DNA from: a virus
DNA: 39,051 bases
IMG/VR virus record: IMGVR_UViG_3300009370_002675
Coordinates: 1-39,051 of that record
Reading direction: 5' to 3' (one strand)
The notes under the pieces: generated by a model
The model's database searches: none
The model's input: only the letters and a program-made list of their open reading frames with translations
Told to the model about the DNA's origin: nothing
Program-made: the position numbers and the translations under genes
Shown: positions 10,256 through 35,370 of the stretch, one piece after another
Position numbering within the stretch: position 1 is the first letter of the stretch
Layout: the number at the start of each line of letters is the position of its first letter

Positions 10256-10797
10256 TAAGGCTTCCTTTTTCAGAGAGCATGGTAGAAAGAGCAAAAGAAA
10301 AAGCCTTGACACTCGGATCTATAAATAATTCTATCCTTCAAGGTAGGGGTAACATTGCTGGATATCTTGGAGAGGAAGCTCTGGCCCCATTTGTTAATGC
10401 AGAAATTGTAAGTAACAATAGAGGTCTTGACAAATATAACCACGACTTATTGTTAGGAAATTCAGACAGACTAGAAGTAAAAACAAAAAGGAGAACTGTA
10501 TCTCCAAGAGACTTTTATGATGTCTCTATAGCTGAAACAAGCGCTCACCAAAGGCCAGACCTGTATGCTTTTATAAGTCTAGAGTTTTCTAAAGCAACCA
10601 AGACCCATCCTAAAACATACTACGGTCTAAAAAATATATGGCTGTGTGGATTCATAACAGCTGAAAGATTTTGGAATGAGTCGGTCTTGTGGGAAAAGGG
10701 CAAGATAGACACAAGAAATAACTTCAAGACGCATGTAAACATGTATAATTTAGAGATAAGAAATTTACACAAAGACCTAACAGGAATAACAATATGA
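10252..10797 (+). CDS. Putative restriction-fold endonuclease
   Basis: The 181-residue protein has features of the PD-(D/E)XK fold: a helix GYLGEEALAPFV (about 38-49), then YNHDLLLG with an Asp near residue 64, then LEVKTKRR with Glu and Lys at the expected spacing. Several resolvase- and restriction-type enzymes share this shape, so it may be a junction resolvase or structure-specific nuclease. It overlaps its upstream neighbour by four bases and the DnaE gene by four bases. The family assignment is by pattern only. Confidence 0.5.
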   Translation: MIRLPFSESMVERAKEKALTLGSINNSILQGRGNIAGYLGEEALAPFVNAEIVSNNRGLDKYNHDLLLGNSDRLEVKTKRRTVSPRDFYDVSIAETSAHQRPDLYAFISLEFSKATKTHPKTYYGLKNIWLCGFITAERFWNESVLWEKGKIDTRNNFKTHVNMYNLEIRNLHKDLTGITI

Positions 10798-12653
10798 AAT
10801 ATGTGCCACTTCATGTACACAGCGAATACTCACTCTTAGATGGTTTATCGCAAACCTCTCAAATATCAAAGAGACTTGAAGAAATAGGGGTTGACGCATG
10901 CGCTCTCACCGATTACGGCACTATTTCCGGAGCTATTGACTTTCATAAAACAATATCCAACGGATTTAAACCTATCCTAGGATGTGAGCTATACTTATCT
11001 TCTCAAGACTCGTCTATAAAGACAGTTGAAAATAAAAGCCTTTCCCACCAAGTTGTATTGGCAAAAAATTTAGATGGATGGAAGAAGTTATTATCTCTTG
11101 TTTCTATCTCCAACAATCCAGACAACTTCTATTATAAGCCCAGAATAGGCTTTGATGATTTCCTGTCTCTTGTGTCGTCAGATGGAAATTTAATTTCTTT
11201 TAGCGGACATCTAGGCTCTCACTTGGGAAATCTAGTTACAGATAATCCGAACTGGAAAAAAGAAGGCTGCGCTGAAGCTAGAAGACTTCAAGAGTCTTTT
11301 GGTAAAGAAAATTTCTATATAGAGATACAACTGATAGACTCTTTGACTAACAGTAAAGCAAAGGAGTGTGCAGAAAAGTTAAGAGAAATATCTAAGGCTA
11401 CTGGAATACCATGTGTTGCAACTCCTGATGCGCATTATTGCAGAAAGGAAGATTCCCACGATCAAAGGGTTTTGTTATGTACAGCATTAAGAAAAAGTAT
11501 CAGCCAGATACAATCGGAAATCAATCAGGGCAAGCTTGTGTCAATGAAGGCTTTCTTTGAGTCCGACAACTACCACATACCATCTTGCGAGGAAATGAAT
11601 CAGCTTCACACTCCAGAAGAGCTACAAAGCACTCTTGATATTGCTGAGCAATGCACAAACTATGAAATTTTAGGCCCTCCAAATCCACCTGTTTTTGATT
11701 GTCCTGAGGGAATGTCCCCAAATGACTACCTTAGATACCTATGTCGCGAGGGCTGGGTGGAAAAAATGGATCATATAAACAAAGGCCACGACCTCTTTGG
11801 GACTTACGGAGACAGGGTTGATAAAGAAATAAAAATCTTTACTGAAACTAATCTGTCTAGCTATTTCTTGATTGTTAGAGATATTTTACAGTATGCAAAC
11901 TCTAAGGGTTATCTGACTGGACCGGGAAGAGGAAGCGCTGCAGGATGTATGGTTTCATACCTAATGGGTATAACTAAAATTGACCCGGTGCCGTATAATC
12001 TTATTTTTGAGAGATTTTACAATGCTGGTCGTAATGCTGGAGGTAGGGTGTCAATGCCAGATATTGATGTCGATGTTCCTAAGTACGGAAGGAATGATAT
12101 AATAGCATACATTAAGAAAAAATATGGTAAAGACAATGTTGCTCAAATCATTAGCTTCCAGACGCTCAAGGGTAGAGCTGCTTTAAAAAGAGTTATGGCC
12201 TCAAGAGGTAACATAGGTTTTGATGAGCAGAACGCTATAACTTCTTACATTTTAGATGAGGCTAAAATTGCTGATGATCTTCAGGATATGAAAGAAGAAC
12301 TTGGGACTTCTTCTGTGATTACTTGGGCTCTTGAAAACAGGAAGGACAAACTGAGTGAATGGTGTCAGGTGAATGAAAATGGAGAGCTGGAAGGCAGGTT
12401 TGCTAAAATATTTGAGCAGGCAGTAAGACTGGAAAACACAAAAATAGTGCAGTCAAAGCACGCTGCGGGCGTTGTTGTCTCCCCACAGCCCATCTATGAT
12501 GTTTGCCCTATGGTAATCGACAGGGAAGGTAAAGATCTTTTGGCTGGATTCGAAGGCCCTAGCTGTGAAGATGCAGGCTTGTTAAAGTTAGATATCTTAG
12601 GTATCAAAATGTTAGATAAAATTATGGACATATCAACGATTTTAAAGGTATAA
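10794..12653 (+). CDS. dnaE: DNA polymerase III alpha, N-terminal half (split DnaE)
   Basis: The 619-residue product matches the first half of bacterial DnaE. The PHP domain starts with LHVHSEYSLLDG (His7, His9). The palm contains GPGRGSAAG (376-384) and PDIDVD (422-427), which hold the first two catalytic Asp residues. KHAAGVVVS follows, and the third catalytic Asp is in LLKLDILG (Asp600). The chain then stops 19 residues later, before the fingers domain. It therefore holds all three catalytic acids but cannot bind the incoming nucleotide or the clamp alone. The rest is encoded at 13509-15146. No intein sequence is present at the break. The two products presumably assemble non-covalently. 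Confidence 0.9.
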   Translation: MKYVPLHVHSEYSLLDGLSQTSQISKRLEEIGVDACALTDYGTISGAIDFHKTISNGFKPILGCELYLSSQDSSIKTVENKSLSHQVVLAKNLDGWKKLLSLVSISNNPDNFYYKPRIGFDDFLSLVSSDGNLISFSGHLGSHLGNLVTDNPNWKKEGCAEARRLQESFGKENFYIEIQLIDSLTNSKAKECAEKLREISKATGIPCVATPDAHYCRKEDSHDQRVLLCTALRKSISQIQSEINQGKLVSMKAFFESDNYHIPSCEEMNQLHTPEELQSTLDIAEQCTNYEILGPPNPPVFDCPEGMSPNDYLRYLCREGWVEKMDHINKGHDLFGTYGDRVDKEIKIFTETNLSSYFLIVRDILQYANSKGYLTGPGRGSAAGCMVSYLMGITKIDPVPYNLIFERFYNAGRNAGGRVSMPDIDVDVPKYGRNDIIAYIKKKYGKDNVAQIISFQTLKGRAALKRVMASRGNIGFDEQNAITSYILDEAKIADDLQDMKEELGTSSVITWALENRKDKLSEWCQVNENGELEGRFAKIFEQAVRLENTKIVQSKHAAGVVVSPQPIYDVCPMVIDREGKDLLAGFEGPSCEDAGLLKLDILGIKMLDKIMDISTILKV

Positions 12654-12657
12654 TTTA

Positions 12658-12852
12658 ATGAACGAACAAAGCTTTGAAGTTAGGTTTGAACCATCAATTG
12701 GAGAACACTGTTATGTCTACCAAAGAAATGATGGTTCTAGCTTTGGGTCTATAGTAAAACCCCATGAGTGGGGGGAAAATTACCAATACAAGTTTTTATA
12801 TAAAGCGACATATACCTCAGAAGGAAAGTGGAAAAAGAACAATGAACAATAG
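12658..12852 (+). CDS. Small protein resembling DUF2452
   Basis: The product has 64 residues. The pattern FEPSIGEHCYVYQRNDG...VKPHEWG...YKATYTSEGKW resembles, from memory, the C-terminal portion of DUF2452 proteins, which have no known function. The ATG at 12658 follows AAGGTATAATTTA, four bases after the DnaE N-half stop. It overlaps the exonuclease start by 11 bases. Its place between the two polymerase halves suggests it came with the exonuclease gene. Confidence 0.5.
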   Translation: MNEQSFEVRFEPSIGEHCYVYQRNDGSSFGSIVKPHEWGENYQYKFLYKATYTSEGKWKKNNEQ

Positions 12853-13522
12853 ATGGATAATTGTATTCGACTGGGAAACTGATAGCCCAAACCCAAACAC
12901 ATGCAACCCTGTTGAGCTTGCTGCCGTACCAGTGAATCCTCGCACGTTAGAAATAAAAACAGATCAAGCATTTCGGGCAACTATTCGTCCAGACGATATT
13001 GATTCCGAAGAATATTTTACCAAAGAAAGACAAGGAACTATAGCTTGGCACGCGAAGCAGCGTGGAGTAGAAACAGAAGAGATTATAGCAGACTGGAAAC
13101 AAGGTCAAAGTGAAAAAGTTGTCTGGAAAAACTTTTGCAACTACTGCGCTAAGTACGAAGTAGACAAAAAGCCGGGACAATGGTATACAGAACCCATCCC
13201 TTCAGGATATAATATTATTGGATTTGATCTTGTCATTGCCAATAGGATGGTTGAAAAACACAAAACAAAGTCTCCTTTCTCAAAGGTAACTAAGATTGAC
13301 ATGATGGACATCCTGTTTATGTGGTTCGAAAATTTAGATGAGCCTAGCAGTATGAAGCTTGATGCTTTCCGAGACTTCTTCGGAATGGAAGCAGCACAAG
13401 CACATGAGGCACTATCAGATACTATTGACGAGGCTGAGCTGTTAGTGAAGTTCATGAAGTTTCATCGAAGACAATCGACAGTTGGAAAATTTAAGGATTC
13501 ATTTGCTAATGCTAAAGTTTAA
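12842..13522 (+). CDS. DEDDh 3'-5' exonuclease (DnaQ/epsilon-like)
   Basis: The 226-residue protein has the three exonuclease motifs in order: Exo I VFDWET (Asp10, Glu12), Exo II NIIGFD (Asp129) and Exo III AHEALSDTIDEAEL (His188, Asp193). This places it in the DEDDh group with the epsilon proofreading subunit of DNA polymerase III. It would remove misincorporated bases for the split polymerase around it. The ATG at 12842 follows GGAAAGTGG; an upstream GTG at 12764 would overlap the previous gene heavily and add no domain. Its last 14 bases overlap the DnaE C-half start. A separate exonuclease gene lying inside a dnaE gene is unusual. Confidence 0.85.
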   Translation: MNNRWIIVFDWETDSPNPNTCNPVELAAVPVNPRTLEIKTDQAFRATIRPDDIDSEEYFTKERQGTIAWHAKQRGVETEEIIADWKQGQSEKVVWKNFCNYCAKYEVDKKPGQWYTEPIPSGYNIIGFDLVIANRMVEKHKTKSPFSKVTKIDMMDILFMWFENLDEPSSMKLDAFRDFFGMEAAQAHEALSDTIDEAELLVKFMKFHRRQSTVGKFKDSFANAKV

Positions 13523-15146
13523 GTGTGGATGTGAATTTCACCAAGACGAAAATGGAAAGACCATATTCGATCCTGATATCAGCAAACTAAACATGGACTG
13601 TGTTGCCACTTGGGATATGATCTGCGATGGAAACACCAAGGGGGTATTTCAGTTAGAGTCTCAACTAGGACGGTCTCTGTCCTCTCAAACAAAGCCTAGA
13701 GACATAGCAGAACTATCAGACTTGATCGCAATTATGCGGCCCGGATGTCTAGAGGCTATAGTTAATGGTAAAACTCTGACTATGCATTACATTGATAGAA
13801 AACACAAAAGAGACGCTGTAGAATATTTTCATGACTCCTTAGAGAGCATACTGGGCAGCACGTATGGTATTTTAGTGTACCAAGAACAGGCAATTCTAAT
13901 TGCTACAGAAATAGCCGGATTTGATTTGCAAGAAGCTGACATTCTCAGAAAGGCTATCGGTAAGAAAAAGGCAGATGTAATGGCTGAGGTTAAAAAGTCT
14001 TTTATTGAAAAGGCTATAAAAAAAGAGATTGTTAATAGAGAACAGGCTGAAGAAATTTTTAGCTGGATCGAGAAATCTCAAAGATATTCTTTTAATAAAT
14101 CTCACTCAGTAAGCTACGCCTACAATGCTTACCTAACAGCATACGCAAAAGCACATTTTCCACATGAATTTTTTACCTCATATCTAAGAAATGCCGTTGG
14201 TAAACCAGACACCTTCATGGAAGTACAAGAGCTTGTCAATAACGCTAAAATAATGGGAATCAATGTAATGCCTCCAAGTGTTACAAAAATGAATGAAGAA
14301 TTTAAGCTAATGGGGGATAACCCTACTTATGGAATGACCAATGTAAAAGGGGTAGGCTCGTCTGTATTTGCAAAGATGAGTGCAGACATGGAGGAAAGAG
14401 GCATTGACCCAGAGAATTGCGATTGGGACTGCTTTCTGCTTTTAGTGTCTCCCCACGTTAACAAAAAGGCATTTTTAAACTTGATACTAGCTGGGTGCTT
14501 TGATTCTTTTAAAATATCTAGAAGTAAGATGCAGCACCAGTACAGCATTGTAAAAGAACTTTCGAAGAGAGAAATTACTTGGCTGTCGGAATACAAGACA
14601 GACAATCCTGAAGAGAAGGTTAAAGAATGTCTATTAAAAATGATAAGTGTATCGGATTCCAAGGATAAAAAAAGACCAATTTTCAGAAAGGCTAGAATTC
14701 CAGTGGTTGTAGACCTAGTGGATGCTTATGAAAATCCGGGATATGACCTATACGATTCTCCGTCTTGGCTCGCAAAACAAGAGGAGGAGCTTCTGGGAAC
14801 AGCATTAACTTGCAGTAAAGTAGATGAGTATGACACAAGCAGGTCCAACTGTACATGCAAAGAATTTTTAGACGGATTCCAAGGTCAGCAGGGTATATAT
14901 TTAGCGGTACAAGTCAACGCTGTCCGGGAATGGGAGATTAAAAAAGGACGTTCAAAAGGTCAAAAGATGGGCTTTTTAACAGTGAGTGACACTAGCTGTT
15001 CTATAGATAATGTAACAGCTTTTTCTGAAGAATGGGATAAGTATAAAAAATTACTCCATGAAGGCAATACGGTACTACTTAGAGGTATCAAAGACAAGAA
15101 TAGAGGAAGTTTTTTGATTAAAAAGGTAGAACAATTAACAAGTTAG
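13509..15146 (+). CDS. dnaE: DNA polymerase III alpha, C-terminal half (split DnaE)
   Basis: The 545-residue product supplies the missing half of DnaE: TKGVFQLES (43-51), the fingers segment with YGILVYQEQ (119-127), ADILRKAIGKKK (143-154), SFNKSHS (194-200), a helix-hairpin-helix-like part (MTNVKGVGSS) and a C-terminal OB fold (GIYLAVQVNA and FLTVSD). The ATG at 13509 lies 11 bases after AAGGA; a TTG at 13482 is less likely. The first 30 residues contain CGCEFH and lead into DCVATWDMI, as in the normal connector. The SFNKSHS motif, the insertion site of the cyanobacterial split DnaE intein, is intact here, so this break is a different event. Confidence 0.9.
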   Translation: MLKFKCGCEFHQDENGKTIFDPDISKLNMDCVATWDMICDGNTKGVFQLESQLGRSLSSQTKPRDIAELSDLIAIMRPGCLEAIVNGKTLTMHYIDRKHKRDAVEYFHDSLESILGSTYGILVYQEQAILIATEIAGFDLQEADILRKAIGKKKADVMAEVKKSFIEKAIKKEIVNREQAEEIFSWIEKSQRYSFNKSHSVSYAYNAYLTAYAKAHFPHEFFTSYLRNAVGKPDTFMEVQELVNNAKIMGINVMPPSVTKMNEEFKLMGDNPTYGMTNVKGVGSSVFAKMSADMEERGIDPENCDWDCFLLLVSPHVNKKAFLNLILAGCFDSFKISRSKMQHQYSIVKELSKREITWLSEYKTDNPEEKVKECLLKMISVSDSKDKKRPIFRKARIPVVVDLVDAYENPGYDLYDSPSWLAKQEEELLGTALTCSKVDEYDTSRSNCTCKEFLDGFQGQQGIYLAVQVNAVREWEIKKGRSKGQKMGFLTVSDTSCSIDNVTAFSEEWDKYKKLLHEGNTVLLRGIKDKNRGSFLIKKVEQLTS

Positions 15147-24631: not shown

Positions 24632-24918
24632 TATTCGCTCTCTTTTTCTTCATGTTCTTTGAAGTAAGGCCATAGGCTATTAAGGAATTTCTTTCTTTTT
24701 CCGCAACCACACCCTTCAGAATCCACATCAAAAGCTCTTTGTATCTTTTCAGATGTAATGCCCATCTTGTTAAGAACTCTTTCTATAGTGTCTCCCAATC
24801 CTCCTCTAGATGAAGCCGCATGCGGAACCGAAAGCTCATCTATATTTTCTTGTCTAAAATTATGAATAAGTTCGTCTGCTAGTTCTTCATCGGTAAGCTC
24901 TTCTTTTTCTTCACTCAT
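24631..24918 (-). CDS. Small CxC-R-LN motif protein (paralogue 1)
   Basis: The 95-residue protein has an acidic N-terminal helix, then GLGDTIERVLNKMGIT (about 41-56), then GCGCGKRKKFLNSLWPYF (69-86). The same pattern occurs in the next minus-strand gene upstream, so the two are paralogues. Paired Cys before Arg/Lys and Leu-Asn is a recurring small domain in phage genomes as I recall it, with no assigned function. A GGGG ribosome binding site lies eight bases before the ATG. It overlaps its neighbour by four bases. Confidence 0.6.
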   Translation of the reverse strand: MSEEKEELTDEELADELIHNFRQENIDELSVPHAASSRGGLGDTIERVLNKMGITSEKIQRAFDVDSEGCGCGKRKKFLNSLWPYFKEHEEKESE

Positions 24919-25367
24919 TTTATATCCCCTTTAGAAAAGATTTTGTTAAGCCATTCTTCTCTTCTGTCACACTTGCAGTCGTTTATTCCAGCAACTGTTG
25001 ACATTACTTCTTTTGTTATACCAATCTTGGATAATATATTGGTTATTGTCGTTCCAAGTCCTTTCTTTTTATTTCCATCTATAGAATCTGGATTAATCCC
25101 TTCTTTATTCAACTCCTTTACAGCCTTATCAAACTTATTTTTAGAGGTCGCTCTTTTTTGAGCCTCCTCAAATCTTTTGCGACCTTCTTCACTATAGTCA
25201 GGTCTGAAAGTATGCCACCATTGATTTCTGGCAGACTGAAGAGTTTTACATTGATGTTGAATCCCCCTGTGAATAAACTGTTGATATATAGGGCAATGTC
25301 CAGCACCATCGCATATACACTCAGAAGGCCCTCCGTTTTTTTCAATCTCATCAAAATCTATTTCCAT
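24915..25367 (-). CDS. Cys-motif protein with CxC-R-LN domain (paralogue 2)
   Basis: The 150-residue protein has an N-terminal cysteine cluster (CICDGAGHCPIYQ, then HQCKTL), a charged middle, and a C-terminal domain (GLGTTITNILSKIGIT, then CKCDRREEWLNKIF) that matches the neighbouring 95-residue protein. The first cluster looks like a metal site. AAAAGGAG precedes the ATG. It is downstream of the cysteine-rich tail protein and probably in the same transcript. It may act in tail decoration or maturation; unproved. Confidence 0.6.
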   Translation of the reverse strand: MEIDFDEIEKNGGPSECICDGAGHCPIYQQFIHRGIQHQCKTLQSARNQWWHTFRPDYSEEGRKRFEEAQKRATSKNKFDKAVKELNKEGINPDSIDGNKKKGLGTTITNILSKIGITKEVMSTVAGINDCKCDRREEWLNKIFSKGDIK

Positions 25368-25383
25368 AATATTCTCCTTTTAA

Positions 25384-26268
25384 TTAACAACATCCTCCCG
25401 GAGGTTCCGGTGTCACTATGGCCAGTACTGTAATAGGGGTTGACGTGTCAGGATCTCCCCCTCCAGCACAGCAGTCGCAATTCCACAGAACGTCCGTTAA
25501 GTTGAACGTGACAGACCAACCCTCATTTCCTCCAAATGCTTCTGGGACACCTGATCCACATACTCCACTTTGCATAAACCAAGTTCCTATGTTCTCACTT
25601 CCGGGAGTCCCATCTTCGGGCGGAATAAAGTGCTGCTCAAAAAACCCTAGAGGTGGACATGTGCAATACTCATATGTTCCCGGCTGAGTTTGCCAGTTCC
25701 ACGTAAATTGATATCTACATGCGTGGCAATCGTCGTGAAAGCCCGGAGCTTGCTTTGCTGCAGCAGGAGTGTCACAACAGCAGAGTGAAATGTTTACTAC
25801 TTCTCCGTCGCATGAACCCGTTTGACATACAACTCCCTCATATGACCACTTTTCAAATTCCCAAGTGCTTAGACTCAATCTAAAATCTTCATTTGGATCT
25901 GGACAGGAAGGAGATTCAGGACATCCAGTATAAACATCAGGATGATAACAAGTTTCTCCACCTATCTCTCTCTCAGGACCATGCCCCCCTACGCCGGGAC
26001 AGTAATCAGCATAGGTTGATGTATATTGATACGGGTTAACACCTGTAACTACAGCGGGCCCCATAGTAAAACAGGTAGTCATCAGATTAGGGCAAAGCCC
26101 ATGACCTGCTGGGTCTGCGAATTGAACACAAACATTACCTGTTGGAGGACACGGGCAACAATGAGCCGGGCATCCGCCAATATCATTCTCAAGTGATGAT
26201 GTACACTTACCACAACACTTGCAGCAATTGTTTCCACCTTTTGGTCCAATCTTTGTAGTTTTAACCAT
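25384..26268 (-). CDS. Very cysteine-rich virion-associated protein
   Basis: The 294-residue protein has about 31 cysteines (over 10%), including CCKCCGKC near the N-terminus, CCCD, CDCC and a terminal GGCC. It is also rich in Gly, Pro and aromatic residues. No signal peptide is visible. The position directly after the giant hub/fibre gene suggests a tail tip or fibre-associated component. The cysteines could bind metal or form disulfides once outside the cell. An AGGA ribosome binding site precedes the ATG. No known family recognised. Confidence 0.6.
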   Translation of the reverse strand: MVKTTKIGPKGGNNCCKCCGKCTSSLENDIGGCPAHCCPCPPTGNVCVQFADPAGHGLCPNLMTTCFTMGPAVVTGVNPYQYTSTYADYCPGVGGHGPEREIGGETCYHPDVYTGCPESPSCPDPNEDFRLSLSTWEFEKWSYEGVVCQTGSCDGEVVNISLCCCDTPAAAKQAPGFHDDCHACRYQFTWNWQTQPGTYEYCTCPPLGFFEQHFIPPEDGTPGSENIGTWFMQSGVCGSGVPEAFGGNEGWSVTFNLTDVLWNCDCCAGGGDPDTSTPITVLAIVTPEPPGGCC

Positions 26269-26289: not shown

Positions 26290-29200
26290 TTAACAACCTT
26301 CACATTCACAGGGCCCATCATCGTCTGATACATGGGTAAACAATCCGCACGCGCTAAAGTTTAATGTTGAGTATCTAACCGTTAAGTCATCTCCTGTGCA
26401 ACAAACGTCTCTTACTAACGTAACTCCAGAAGCCGCTCCTCCATGACACGGGTTCGCGGAAGATATTGTCCTTCCAGCATTAGGGTCGATGCTTATTTTA
26501 GCACCCTTTTTGTCACCACATAGCGTATCACTACTAGCTTCTAGTTTTAATCCACACCCTAACTCTATATTCTCTAAGTGGCTAAACGTCTCTGTAGACA
26601 TGCTGCTAGAGGTTCCTTCACAGGTGCCACTTTGACCTTTCAATGTTAGATTGGTATAAACTATAGCATCACAGCCATTTTCTCTACCTGTAATATAAAC
26701 TCCGGGACCAGCAAATATATCACAAACATTTGAAGGAGCATGAGTCCATCCAGCTAACGGCGTACAACTAGCAGTGCCTTCGCTGTTAAAATCAAAACGC
26801 TGAACCCCTGTCATGTCTATCTCTAAGAATATATCATGGGAACACATGTCCGGATAGTATTTTGAAGTTAGACCGCAGCCAAAGTTGAGTTCTGTAAAGC
26901 TTTCCCCGTCAGAGTCTGCGAGAGAGCTATAAGGAGAGACCCCTACGCAATGACTTGAGTTCAGAACTTTCATCGGATTGGTGAGAACCTTTGTTCCACA
27001 TCCAGACGATGTTAAGGAAAGACCTGTAGATACAATTAATTTACTGAACGGGGATTCAGTAACGTCCATTGGAAGACAGTCTCCGGGGCCTTCACAAGAG
27101 CCTCCATCACACCACTTTTCTCCAGATATTTTTGGACCGCTAATAAGGAAACCGCAAGGATCACCCCCTCCGGTGCTCTCAATATTAATGCCTGTTGTAA
27201 ATATAAGGTCATGGAAGAATGTTCTTGAGAAATCTAGTGCTCCATCACAACCAGAACCACTCACATACTGTGGAGCATGAATGACAGGATGACAATCTGT
27301 ATTGGTTTTTTCAAATCCAGTTCCAAACGTTAGCTGTTGGAAAGGCTTGCCTCCCCAGTCTCCACCACCACCATCAAGACTACAAGAGCCAATCCCACTA
27401 ACCCTAGGGCCAGAAATTATAAATGAGCAATTATCACCCTCGTTTGTGCTCTGGATAGTTGTACCAGTTGTAAAAATCAACTCATTAAAGAAAGATCTTG
27501 CAAACGTATTTTCGCAGTCACCTGATCCGCTAACATATTGAGGAGCGTGGACGATAGGCTGGCAATCCGTTCCCCCTTCTTGAGAAAATCCTGAGCCAAA
27601 AATCAACGTATCAAAAGGAAGTCCTCCCCAATCTGAAGCTCCTGCTTGAGCAGTACAAGACTCTATACCGCTCACTTTAGGTCCAGATATTACGTATCTA
27701 CAGTCATCTCCCGGAGCAGCATCTTGTATGTTAACTCCTGTTGTAAATATTAGCTCATTAAAGAATTTACGGGTAGTAAACGTATTGCAATCGCCTGAGC
27801 CGCTAACATACTGGGGTGCGTGGACGATAGGCTGGCAATCCGTTCCCCCTTCTTGATGAAGTCCTGAGCCAAACACTAGCATATTGAATGGGTTGCCGCC
27901 CCAGTTACCCGCTCCAGCTTGTGATGTGCATGATGCTAGACCGCTCACTTTAGGTCCTTCAATAAACCATGAATTGGCCTCAGCAGTATTTTCAGAAACT
28001 TTAAGCCCCGTGCTGAAAAGCATGTGGGAAGCTATTTGTTTTACTGGAGTATTATTGGTACAGCCAGTATTGCTTATAAAGGTAGAACCTCCTCCTCCTC
28101 CAGAGCCTGATGACCAGATTTCATAACTGCAATCACCTAGCGATCTTACACCTAGCCCGCTTGTGAACGACAGGTTGTTGAAGAATGCACTACTTATCGA
28201 TGTATCGCTCTCTAGTAAAGTAGTTCCCGTAGCAGATATAGTATGGTCTGCATCAATTCCATATTCACAGTCAGCTCCAGTAACCTTTAAGCCCGATCCA
28301 AACTTCAAATGCTCATACGGCTTATCGGAAATAGAAGGAGAGTGATTACAATAGGAATCATCAGTAATCTTGTGAGCGGATTTTATTATATAATCACAGT
28401 TAGCGCCAGTTTTCTCTACATCAATACCTGTTGAGAAGTATAACAGGTCAAATGGAACACTATCTATTGATAAAGTATTATCACAAGTATTTTTAGATAT
28501 CCTTCTTGATGAACCTATGGTAAATTCGCAATCACCATCATCTTTGACATCTATACCAGTGCTAAAGGTTAAGAGTCTAAATAGCTGATCTGGTACGGCG
28601 GGTGAACCACAAACTTCCTCAGCCTTAATTCTATGGTCTGCATCAATAGTGAAGTCACAGCTTCCACCACTAACTTTAAGACCTGATCCAAAAATAAGAG
28701 TTTCAAAATATTGCTTATCAGATGCTACGGTTGGAGAATATGCACAATACCCAGTGTCTTTCACAAATCTTGAGACGTTAACCCCATAAGAGCAATCGGC
28801 TCCAGTAACTTGCAAGCCTGATCCAAAAGCTATGTTTGTAAAGAATGATTCTGCTGGAATCTCTGGACTATATTCACAATAGGCTATATCTGAGATGCTG
28901 TGATCCGCAACGATTCCAAATTCACATGCTGAACCTGTTGTCTTTAGGCCTGAACTGAAGTTAAGTTTTGTGTATGAGGTATAGTCTAGGAGTGTTCCTG
29001 TATGACCACAATACTCACCATCTTTAAGTTTATGTGCAGAGGATATTTTAAATGCACAATCCCCTTCATCTGATACCTCCATACCAGTGCCGAATAGTAA
29101 CTTCTTAAAGAATTGTTCAGGAATAGTCTCAGTGTCGCATTCTCCGCTGGTGGAGATATATCTTTCTACATCAATTGTAGGATTACAATCGGTTCCAGTC

Positions 29201-32200
29201 ATCTTAAATCCAGAACCGAATATTAATGTGCCAAAGGACTTGCCTCCCCAATTAGAGACTCCACAACTCCCAATACCGCTAAGTTTGGGACCTTCAATCA
29301 GCCAAGAGTTTGGAGAGTCTAGATTTTGAGTAACATCTAGGCCGGTGCTAAATACCATATGTTGTGTTGGTTGGAAACTGGGCCCACTGGCATCACAACC
29401 ACTATTTGATATATAAGAAATTGCACCTCCTGAACCGGAAGCAAACACCTCATAAACACAGTCTCCTAAATCTTTCACCCCTAAGCCACTTGTAAAACTT
29501 AGATTCTTAAAGAATTGATTATTAACACTATCAGAGTCCGTCAAAGTAGAGCCGGTGCTACTTATAGTTATATCAGTACTTATAGAATAATTACAATCAC
29601 CTGAAGAGTTTACATTAAGACCACTATTAAAGATAAGATTATTAAACAATGTTGGAGCTAGTACTTCATTCCCTACACAGCCCTCTACGTGAGAAATAGT
29701 TCTATTAGAGTCTATCTTAAACTCACAGTTAGCGCCCTCCTCTATCGTTAAACCCGATCTTGCAGTAATCTTTTTAAAGGGCTTGTCAGTTACGGAAACC
29801 GATTCGTTACAAGTAGCCTCATCCTTCAGGAGAAGATTAACATCTAGCTTGTATTCACAATTGCTAGCCTCTTCAATTTTCAATCCTGAACGTGCAGTGA
29901 TCTTCTTAAAGTTCTTATCTGTAACTGTAACTGTGTCACCACATGTGGCCTCATCGTTAACTTCTAGATTTACATCTAACTTGTATTCGCAGGCATCTGT
30001 AGTGATGAACCTTAAACCAGAACGAGCTGTAATCTTCTGAAATGGTTTATTATGCATATTAACTACATCGCCACATGTAGCCTCGTCGTCCACTAGAAGA
30101 TTAACATTTATATCGTATCCGCAATCATCGGATTCTTCTAAAGTCAATCCTGACTTGAAGTTTAATTTACTAAATAATTCATAGTCTGCTACCGTAGATG
30201 TTGTAGAGCAAGTTGATTCATCTTTAACCTGAATGTCGGAACTTATAGTTCCCGTACAGCTTCCTGCACCTGCATACTTAAGGCCTGTTCCCATAACAAG
30301 AGTAGTAACATTCTCTGGGGCAACTTCGTCGTTTCCGCACACACCTGAAGAGCCAACCTTAAAGTCAGAGGAAATCTTATAGCCACAATTTCCCTCTGAC
30401 CCTAAAGTAAGACCTGTTCCTATAATTAAGCTATCATAGAAACCCCCTTCTTGACCTGTATTACCACATGTAGCTGCTCCGGTAATTGTATTAGTGCTGC
30501 TAATTGTCCATTCACAACCCGTCCCAGTAACTTGCAGTCCGGAAGAGAAGTTGAGTCTATTGAAGAATGAATAGTTTGACGGCGCATCTTCTGCAGAGAC
30601 TGAACCGCATGTAGGGGTAGATTTTATGCTATGATCAGCAGTAATCCTATATGCACAACCCGAGGTTTCACCTCCTGTTCCGGTAACATCATCAACGTAA
30701 AGACCTGTTCCAAACTCTAAGTGCTGAAAAAAGGCACCTTCAAGTAATCCAGTTCCCGTATTGCCTGTATGACCACAGTATTTACCATCCGTAAGGGTCT
30801 GCTCGGCTGTAATTACGTAATTGCAACTGCCTTCACTTCGCTCGACGGCTAACCCCTTTGAAAATAGCAAGTTTTCATAAGTTACACCTGTGAGGTCGTC
30901 CCCTGTTCCTGTTCCGCAACTTCTGTTGGAAAGGGTCTTGGTGCTAGATATGGAATACGTACATCCGCTCACGTTCTCAACAAACAATCCAGTTTTGACT
31001 AGAAGGTTATTAAAGAAGTTATAACCATAATCACCAGTTCCAGTTCCAGAACAGATTGGATCGAAACCTATCTGATGATCGGCATGAATACTGAATGAAC
31101 AGTCAGTATCACCAGTAATGACATTTAAGCCAGTCGCGAATGTAAGGTCTGTAAACCTTCGGTTTGTAATTGGTAGTCCTGTTCCAGTTTGGCAACCGCT
31201 AAGATTGGTTATCTTTATATCGGAAACTATTGCATACTTACAATCTCCTGAACTCTCTACTCCAATTCCAGTGCTAAATAAAAGACCGCTATAGACGGCG
31301 TCTTGAATACTACCTGATTCACCACCACACTCAAAGAGACTTAGCCTTTGTAGGATAGGATCAACAGTAAAGTCACCATCACACCCAGAATTCTCCCCTG
31401 TGTTTTTAGATAAAATAAAACCCGAGCCAAAATTAAGACTCTCGAAAAATCCTCCAGTAGGCTGTGCTTCTCCCGAACAGAAGTTTCCCTGACCCGTAAC
31501 TGATAAGTTAAGTTCAATTACAGCAGAATGAGTTCCACTAGGATCATTCATAAAGTTGCCTGAACCTAAACCTTCTGCGCATCCGCCAGTTCCAGTGTTG
31601 GTTCCCGACAAGCAGACAGTCGATAATGCAAGACCTTTTCCTAAGACTAAGTTTGTTACATCACATATAGATGGGAATTCATATCCTGTTCCATCAGCTG
31701 AATAGTCACCAGAACCGCTAGCCTCACAACCACTGGAAATGACGCATAGACTAGTTCCGCTAGAAGGGGAGGACAGTAAAGGATAATAGGTACACTCAAC
31801 ATTATCATAAAAGGCGAAGAAAGTATCCCCGCTTTCTGGAGGAGTCATTCCAGAAGGAACTGTGTATATGATACTTCCGCTTGTTAGCGGATTTCCACCG
31901 GAATCATACGTCTGAGTTAGATTTTTTATTGTAGCTCCAGCGCCGTTCTCGCCAGATCCAGTAGCTGTAGCAACACCTATTCTGAACTGGTTGGGAACAG
32001 TCCATACAGCTCTAGTCCTGTCAAACCTTAAGTCTATTGGTGCTACAGGCCATGTCTCTTGATTTGTTAACCATCCCGTTAAAAATGTATCTTTTAATCC
32101 GGTATGTTGAAATGTGCCATCCCTAGCGTCGATTGGGTCGTCCACATAGTTAGGTATAGGTTTTCCTTCTGTATCATAACCCCACCCATGAAGTAACATA

Positions 32201-35370: not shown

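Follow-up and report, generated by a model that had tools for sequence, protein, structure and literature searches.

Triple beta-spiral fibres, which include the adenovirus fibre, reovirus sigma1 and regions of the T4 short fibre, are built from repeats of about 15 residues that contain no cysteine. Among siphophage tail-tip proteins, Tal consists of a hub domain followed by an extension, and some Tal proteins reach 2000 residues or more (PMC7291167). Disulfide bonds are known from the particles of certain tailed phages. The Agrobacterium phage Milano has Cys-enriched structural proteins that are crosslinked by disulfides into a large network, and reduction yields a fragile particle or tail contraction (PMC10811340, PMC10491603); phage T1 has disulfides in its tail tube (PMC11945409). 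The statement in the initial annotation of the present locus that phage fibres normally avoid disulfides therefore needs a qualifier, as both of these tails contain them. The available portions of these reports describe no periodic Cys ladder along a fibre shaft for Milano or T1, and the T5 pb1 fibre is not described as disulfide-rich in the available part of the CASP16 paper.

We analyzed a window of 39,051 nucleotides (the whole of IMG/VR record IMGVR_UViG_3300009370_002675), in which an ORF on the minus strand, running from 35370 to 26290, encodes a 3026-residue protein that we call P0001. The window sequence is one end of a longer IMG/VR record, IMGVR_UViG_3300009370_001778 (79,624 bases), and the ORF ends agree in the two. 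The parts of P0001 and its neighbouring genes are listed below, where L numbers denote loci.

26290..35370, minus strand: hub-fibre protein P0001, 3026 aa, 95 Cys; L015/L017 carry a full-length homologous ORF of 2713 aa
32866..35370, minus strand: aa 1-835, hub of the gp27/Tal/VgrG type with large insertions, from the AlphaFold2 model (pLDDT 69) and PDB fold matches
32656..32865, minus strand: aa 836 to about 905 (end at 905 estimated), with a long helix predicted to exit the hub (836-879 in the AlphaFold2 model); the division into hub and fibre genes in L029 and L033 falls near this point
31744..32655, minus strand: aa 906-1209, conserved, Cys-poor shoulder domain; hub plus shoulder 46% identical in L017
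27049..31659, minus strand: aa 1238-2774, fibre array of about 34 modules (about 44 aa each) with the two-Cys ladder, from a turn regular expression and an HMM
29236..29646, minus strand: aa 1909-2045, irregular triple of modules, copy 1; the same block, with extra Cys, occurs in L017 and L030
27889..28317, minus strand: aa 2352-2494, irregular triple, copy 2, with the same Cys pattern by alignment to copy 1
26290..27048, minus strand: aa 2775-3026, the final two module turns plus a Cys-rich cap at the C-terminus (Cys at 6.5% over aa 2766-3026)
25384..26268, minus strand: P0004, 294 aa, 31 Cys (10.5%), gene next to the fibre, of no known family
24915..25367, minus strand: P0005, 150 aa, small downstream gene with homologues in most relatives
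35403..37055, minus strand: P0002, 550 aa, Dit-like by gene order, conserved in nearly all relatives
37015..39030, minus strand: P0003, tape-measure C-terminal part, truncated by the contig end and free of Cys; named from size and place

Several other genes on these records deserve mention in their own right. DNA polymerase III alpha seemingly occupies two ORFs (window 10794-15146), one with the PHP and NTPase domains and the other with the finger and HHH domains, and an RNase_T exonuclease ORF (12764-13522) sits between them; this could be a gene break, an intron or intein remnant, or a true split. An ORF with a Cas12f1-like TNB domain (TnpB-like) lies among the replication genes at 3001-4257. 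A 911-aa ORF on the same contig (L007:17111-19846) looks repetitive and very Cys-rich, has no Pfam match and is possibly another Cys-rich virion protein. L006:4840-19096 holds a large block of sugar or surface-polymer genes, with a NeuB-family synthase and others that by the look of their sequences are glycosyltransferases, methyltransferases and epimerases.

The N-terminal region was modelled with AlphaFold2, for which residues 1-880 and 16 family members were used. The model had a pLDDT of 69, and the limits of the hub domain are for that reason approximate. The best PDB matches found with Foldseek were hubs of contractile injection systems, VgrG, Mu gp44 and related tail proteins, while the best 45 rows from VIA-align were almost all hub, VgrG or Tal chains (Z 6.0-10.4, 199-248 residues aligned). 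These data support a hub fold of the gp27/Mu gp44/Tal/VgrG type, bearing out the hub-like N-terminal domain that had first been proposed; by analogy with known hubs, it would be trimeric. Gene order agrees with this assignment. In nearly all relatives in which the flank is available, a large Cys-poor ORF is followed by a member of the P0002 family and then by the hub, so that the P0001 gene directly follows the genes that we name tape measure and Dit, both names resting on order and size. The relatives' ORFs in the tape-measure position are mostly 1600-2750 aa long and contain 0-8 Cys, most having none. P0002 itself matched no family in Pfam or PHROGs.

A fusion of hub and fibre had also been considered rare, and this view did not survive comparison: Tal proteins are known as hub plus extension (PMC7291167), and fused and split forms both occur among the relatives of P0001. 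In L029 and L033 the hub is a gene of its own (887 and 860 aa, respectively) and the fibre is encoded by the next gene. That gene opens with the shoulder domain (37-40% identical to aa 886-1209) and closes with the same Cys-rich cap as P0001. Since the Tal/gpJ plan is known and these two loci are split, we regard the fusion as an ordinary, variable trait. The shoulder is recognizable by the motif ...LLHGWGYD.EGKPIPN...WPVAPIDLR.DR.R.VWTVP..., and a cap motif close to the C-terminus, D[IV]CC...L.F..CGLF, is common to several relatives, fused or separate. The extension of P0001 showed no recognizable receptor-binding domain. The separate fibre of L033 (L033:12547-16497, 1317 aa, 59 Cys) has shorter repeats, GQGxITVTxxGxCGYIVSGC, and represents another shape of Cys ladder.

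The modules of P0001 are about 44 aa long and follow the consensus FxxLxFGSGLxV-(4-8)-C-xYxI-(11-12)-C, the two Cys of which we term C1 and C2. A regular expression for the turn FxxLxFGSGLxV found 36 turns at aa 1238-2932, with most modules 42-56 aa long, and a module HMM built from the window and L017 found 34 modules, in good agreement with the earlier estimate of about 35. Across the regular stretch of the array, C1 occupies module positions 17-25 (usually 17-19) and C2 positions 32-41 (usually 33-35). Residues 1301-2760 contain 61 Cys, and 25 of the 60 successive spacings equal 15 or 16; when Cys were placed at random in 20,000 draws, such spacings had a mean of 2.7 and a maximum of 11. 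Moreover, 23 of them are followed by a spacing of 26-32, against a random mean of 0.24 and maximum of 4. When 47 modules from the window and L017 were aligned, each of the two Cys was found in 96% of them, as expected from the initial observation that most modules have one Cys after the turn and one at the module end. Only the turn Gly is more conserved (100%), and mean identity outside the Cys columns is 25.5%. The codons at C1 and at C2 are in each case 20 TGT and 9 TGC; because both are in use, it is the residue and not the codon that is conserved. From the excess of regular spacings, the retention of Cys at this level of identity and the use of both codons, we conclude that the ladder is real and strongly selected. 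That it is regular and non-random confirms what had been noticed in the window, and it is kept in relatives.

Other genes of the window also have a fair amount of Cys (mean of 1.9% in the plus-strand genes), and the enrichment could on that account be viewed as a passive property of the proteome of the phage or its host, without a role in the fibre. Within a single operon, however, Cys makes up 0.9% of the hub (8 Cys in aa 1-880), 0.3% of the linker, 4.4% of the fibre, 6.5% of the C-terminal part and 0% of the P0003 tape-measure fragment. A passive origin also sits badly with 96% retention at two exact columns, and we find it scarcely credible. With the 10.5% of P0004 included, the structural proteins here are Cys-enriched relative to the other genes and the tape measure, as they are in Milano.

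The first relative was located by a DNA pattern for the module, and hub alignments then led to 26 IMG/VR loci, which include several same or nearly same phages. At least 12 distinct relatives possess a hub and a Cys-rich fibre, with 2.5-5.1% Cys in the fibre and from a few to 36 modules, and the ladder is therefore a trait of the lineage. Another locus matched by the DNA pattern, L010, was rejected as an unrelated, ordinary siphophage. Searches of Pfam, PHROGs and PDB sequences with full P0001 gave nothing useful (no Pfam family at E 1), and hub searches found no family member in Pfam, PHROGs, PDB sequences or GenBank phages. Likewise, tblastn of the hub, the fibre, P0002, P0004 and a run of modules gave no match among GenBank phages. 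A match to phrog_31660, 'tail fiber protein', at 5e-4 came from a single sequence of the module alignment and is a weak hint only. The P0004 homologue in L017 is 37% identical, and homologues with 8-10% Cys lie beside most relatives' fibres; P0004 is a candidate virion tip or fibre partner. In distant hub relatives (L038, L039, L040), the first 1100 aa of the hub ORF include 23-27 Cys, and a protein encoded downstream has 56-59; Cys-rich tail tips may reach beyond this clade.

A single-chain prediction of five modules had a pLDDT of 38, too low for Cys-Cys distances to be taken from it. In this low-confidence model each module forms one hairpin, in which C1 comes immediately after the turn and C2 falls within the loop past the second strand. 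Instead of a trimeric shaft, the modules could be blades of a beta-propeller or units of some other repeat fold within one chain, with a disulfide pinning each blade. The module profile does match the designed Pizza propeller, a 42-residue NHL-type repeat, with an E of 2e-5. However, two repeat sequences whose units are of similar length may match through periodicity alone. Individual stretches reached just 0.02-0.15, natural NHL proteins gave no match, and the Pfam search described above found no family for P0001. Moreover, the prediction, at its low confidence, gives two long strands per module and not four short ones. We consider a propeller or similar fold quite unlikely.

Where the ladder is interrupted, the pattern of Cys loss bears on how the Cys are paired. 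In each irregular triple, one module has C1 only, the next retains C1, with C2 displaced to a distance of 21-23 residues and a Gly/Ser-rich loop, and the last has C2 only. The window's two triples represent a single event that was copied, as 96 of 187 aligned positions are identical (blocks 1909-2087 and 2352-2536). If C2 of one module pairs with C1 of the next, the two leftover Cys of a triple fall in the same module and can pair, whereas pairing inside each module leaves two distant Cys unpaired. The homologous blocks of L017 and L030 contain an extra Cys seven residues after C1. They also contain two additional, closely spaced Cys immediately ahead of the module without C1, and this close pair is present or absent as a unit in 6/6 blocks examined. 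Single-Cys modules alternate between C1 only and C2 only in 4/4 cases in the window protein and in the first six of L023. In alternating arrays (L023 and the end of L030), isolated modules retain both of their own Cys, which fits pairing within the module better. These patterns were counted by eye on alignments, and the two window triples are not independent of each other. The number of fibre Cys is even in nine nearer relatives (9/9) and odd in five more remote ones (5/5). With just 9/14 even, we rejected even counts as proof of pairing, and because the five remote relatives are all odd, parity is only suggestive. Overall, the data are suggestive of fibre Cys that have partners, most often C2 of one module with C1 of the next in unbroken arrays, within or between chains.

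Some trimeric phage fibres contain metal ions, and the Cys of P0001 might bind metal between chains or modules and stiffen the shaft in that manner. Their fixed spacing provides two ligands per module per chain, of which a trimer could bring six together. Yet there is no CxxC in aa 1191-2760, no His is conserved to 50% in the module columns, and the whole shaft has 23 His. We therefore judge metal binding to be very unlikely.

Evidence on the host came from accessory genes. Three DUF1501 genes lie on the 79,624-base record (L007:11000-16147, equal to positions about 31000-36150), and such genes occur in 5/20 family records. One of the encoded proteins is 87% identical to proteins of Rhodopirellula/Pirellulaceae MAGs, and nearly all of its 80 best matches are from Planctomycetota. 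The DUF1501 genes point to a marine planctomycete (Pirellulaceae) as the likely host, and the lineage probably infects marine Pirellulaceae. No match to the hub profile turned up among genome contigs or the 392 Planctomycetota genomes scanned, and 294 Planctomycetota genomes were equally negative for the module profile; both genome searches were run without a positive control, and these absences carry little weight. As no family member was found in a planctomycete genome, we infer the host from the accessory genes. Planctomycete walls are reported to be made of Cys-rich protein that is stabilized by disulfides (PMC3035269, PMC8567305).

Such a wall raises the possibility that the fibre Cys are reduced thiols or reactive disulfides that exchange with wall disulfides, whereby the fibre would be bound to the wall covalently or would loosen it. 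The presumed Pirellulaceae host, the disulfide-stabilized envelope protein of planctomycetes (PMC3035269, PMC8567305) and the conserved, adjoining, very Cys-rich P0004 would all suit this mechanism. On the other hand, binding needs a few exposed Cys at the tip and not two per module across about 36 modules, the modules have no homology in the host genomes searched, and the matched losses of Cys suggest that their partners lie within the fibre. We regard such exchange as unlikely. A combined scheme, in which staples in planctomycete phages co-evolved with the disulfide-bonded host wall and the cap and P0004 engage the wall by thiol-disulfide exchange, is speculative and in our estimation improbable; phage attachment by such exchange was not found in the literature searched.

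Disulfide stapling is the most economical and most likely reading of the ladder, and since the walls of the likely hosts are reported to be disulfide-bonded and the ladder recurs in the family, we reasoned that the fibre is probably disulfide-stapled. With moderate confidence, we propose that P0001 is the siphovirus-like central tail-tip protein of a Pirellulaceae phage, composed of a hub, a shaft of about 36 modules and a cap, the Cys of which oxidize to disulfide staples. The N-terminal part would form a trimeric hub that closes the tail tube, and the helix and shoulder domain would lead into a shaft of beta-hairpin modules. The Cys-rich cap at the end of the shaft would probably bear the receptor-binding tip or hold it in place. 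Of the two Cys in a module, the first would lie just past the predicted turn of the hairpin and the other 15-16 residues further on, in the loop to the next module. Oxidation of C1 and C2 would take place when virions have left the cytoplasm, whether after lysis or in an oxidizing compartment. C2 of one module would then probably bond C1 of the next, within or between the chains of the trimer, to give a covalently stapled fibre, and such a stiff or protease-resistant fibre would suit the disulfide-stabilized protein wall reported for relatives of the host. Genes of the thioredoxin/glutaredoxin family were not found in the window's contig and occurred only in distant family members, so nothing phage-encoded was seen that would drive the oxidation.

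The analysis gives a likely host to an uncultured phage family that lies outside Pfam, PHROGs, PDB sequences and the GenBank phage set searched, and it does so in a phylum, the planctomycetes, on which the literature searched holds little phage work. A fibre-shaft module built on two nearly invariant Cys is an addition to the known hub-fibre plan. If the disulfides are true, P0001 would stand as a naturally occurring protein fibre of great length with staples at regular intervals, useful as a model of phage stability and of how a phage copes with a wall of cystine-bonded protein. Relatives differ widely in their number of modules, which lets shaft length and Cys pairing be compared.

Set beside the described systems, the modules of P0001 share with triple beta-spirals a short strand, a G-x-G-L type turn and a second strand, repeated in a presumed trimer. 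They differ in their unit of about 44 residues, their long second loop and the presence of Cys, and with modules mostly of 42-56 aa where the class has a repeat of about 15, P0001 falls outside it in spite of the similar turn. The YTV-domain wall proteins of planctomycetes (PMC8567305), compared by description only, are likewise Cys-rich and extracellular; they are proteins of the host, whereas P0001 is that of a phage. Milano and T1 share with P0001 disulfides in a tailed-phage particle, demonstrated in those phages and predicted from sequence here. There the bonds crosslink sheath, tube, baseplate, neck and capsid, and hosts and folds differ. P0001 also resembles the Tal/gpJ hubs (p2, A118, SPP1 gp21 and lambda gpJ; PMC7291167), which have the same gp27-like N-terminal hub, the same gene position after the tape measure and Dit-like genes, and a long extension expected to bear or bind the receptor-binding part. 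P0001 departs from them in having no detected sequence similarity, in its large hub insertions, in a length of 3026 aa that is near the top of their known range, and in an extension that is an array of Cys-ladder modules.
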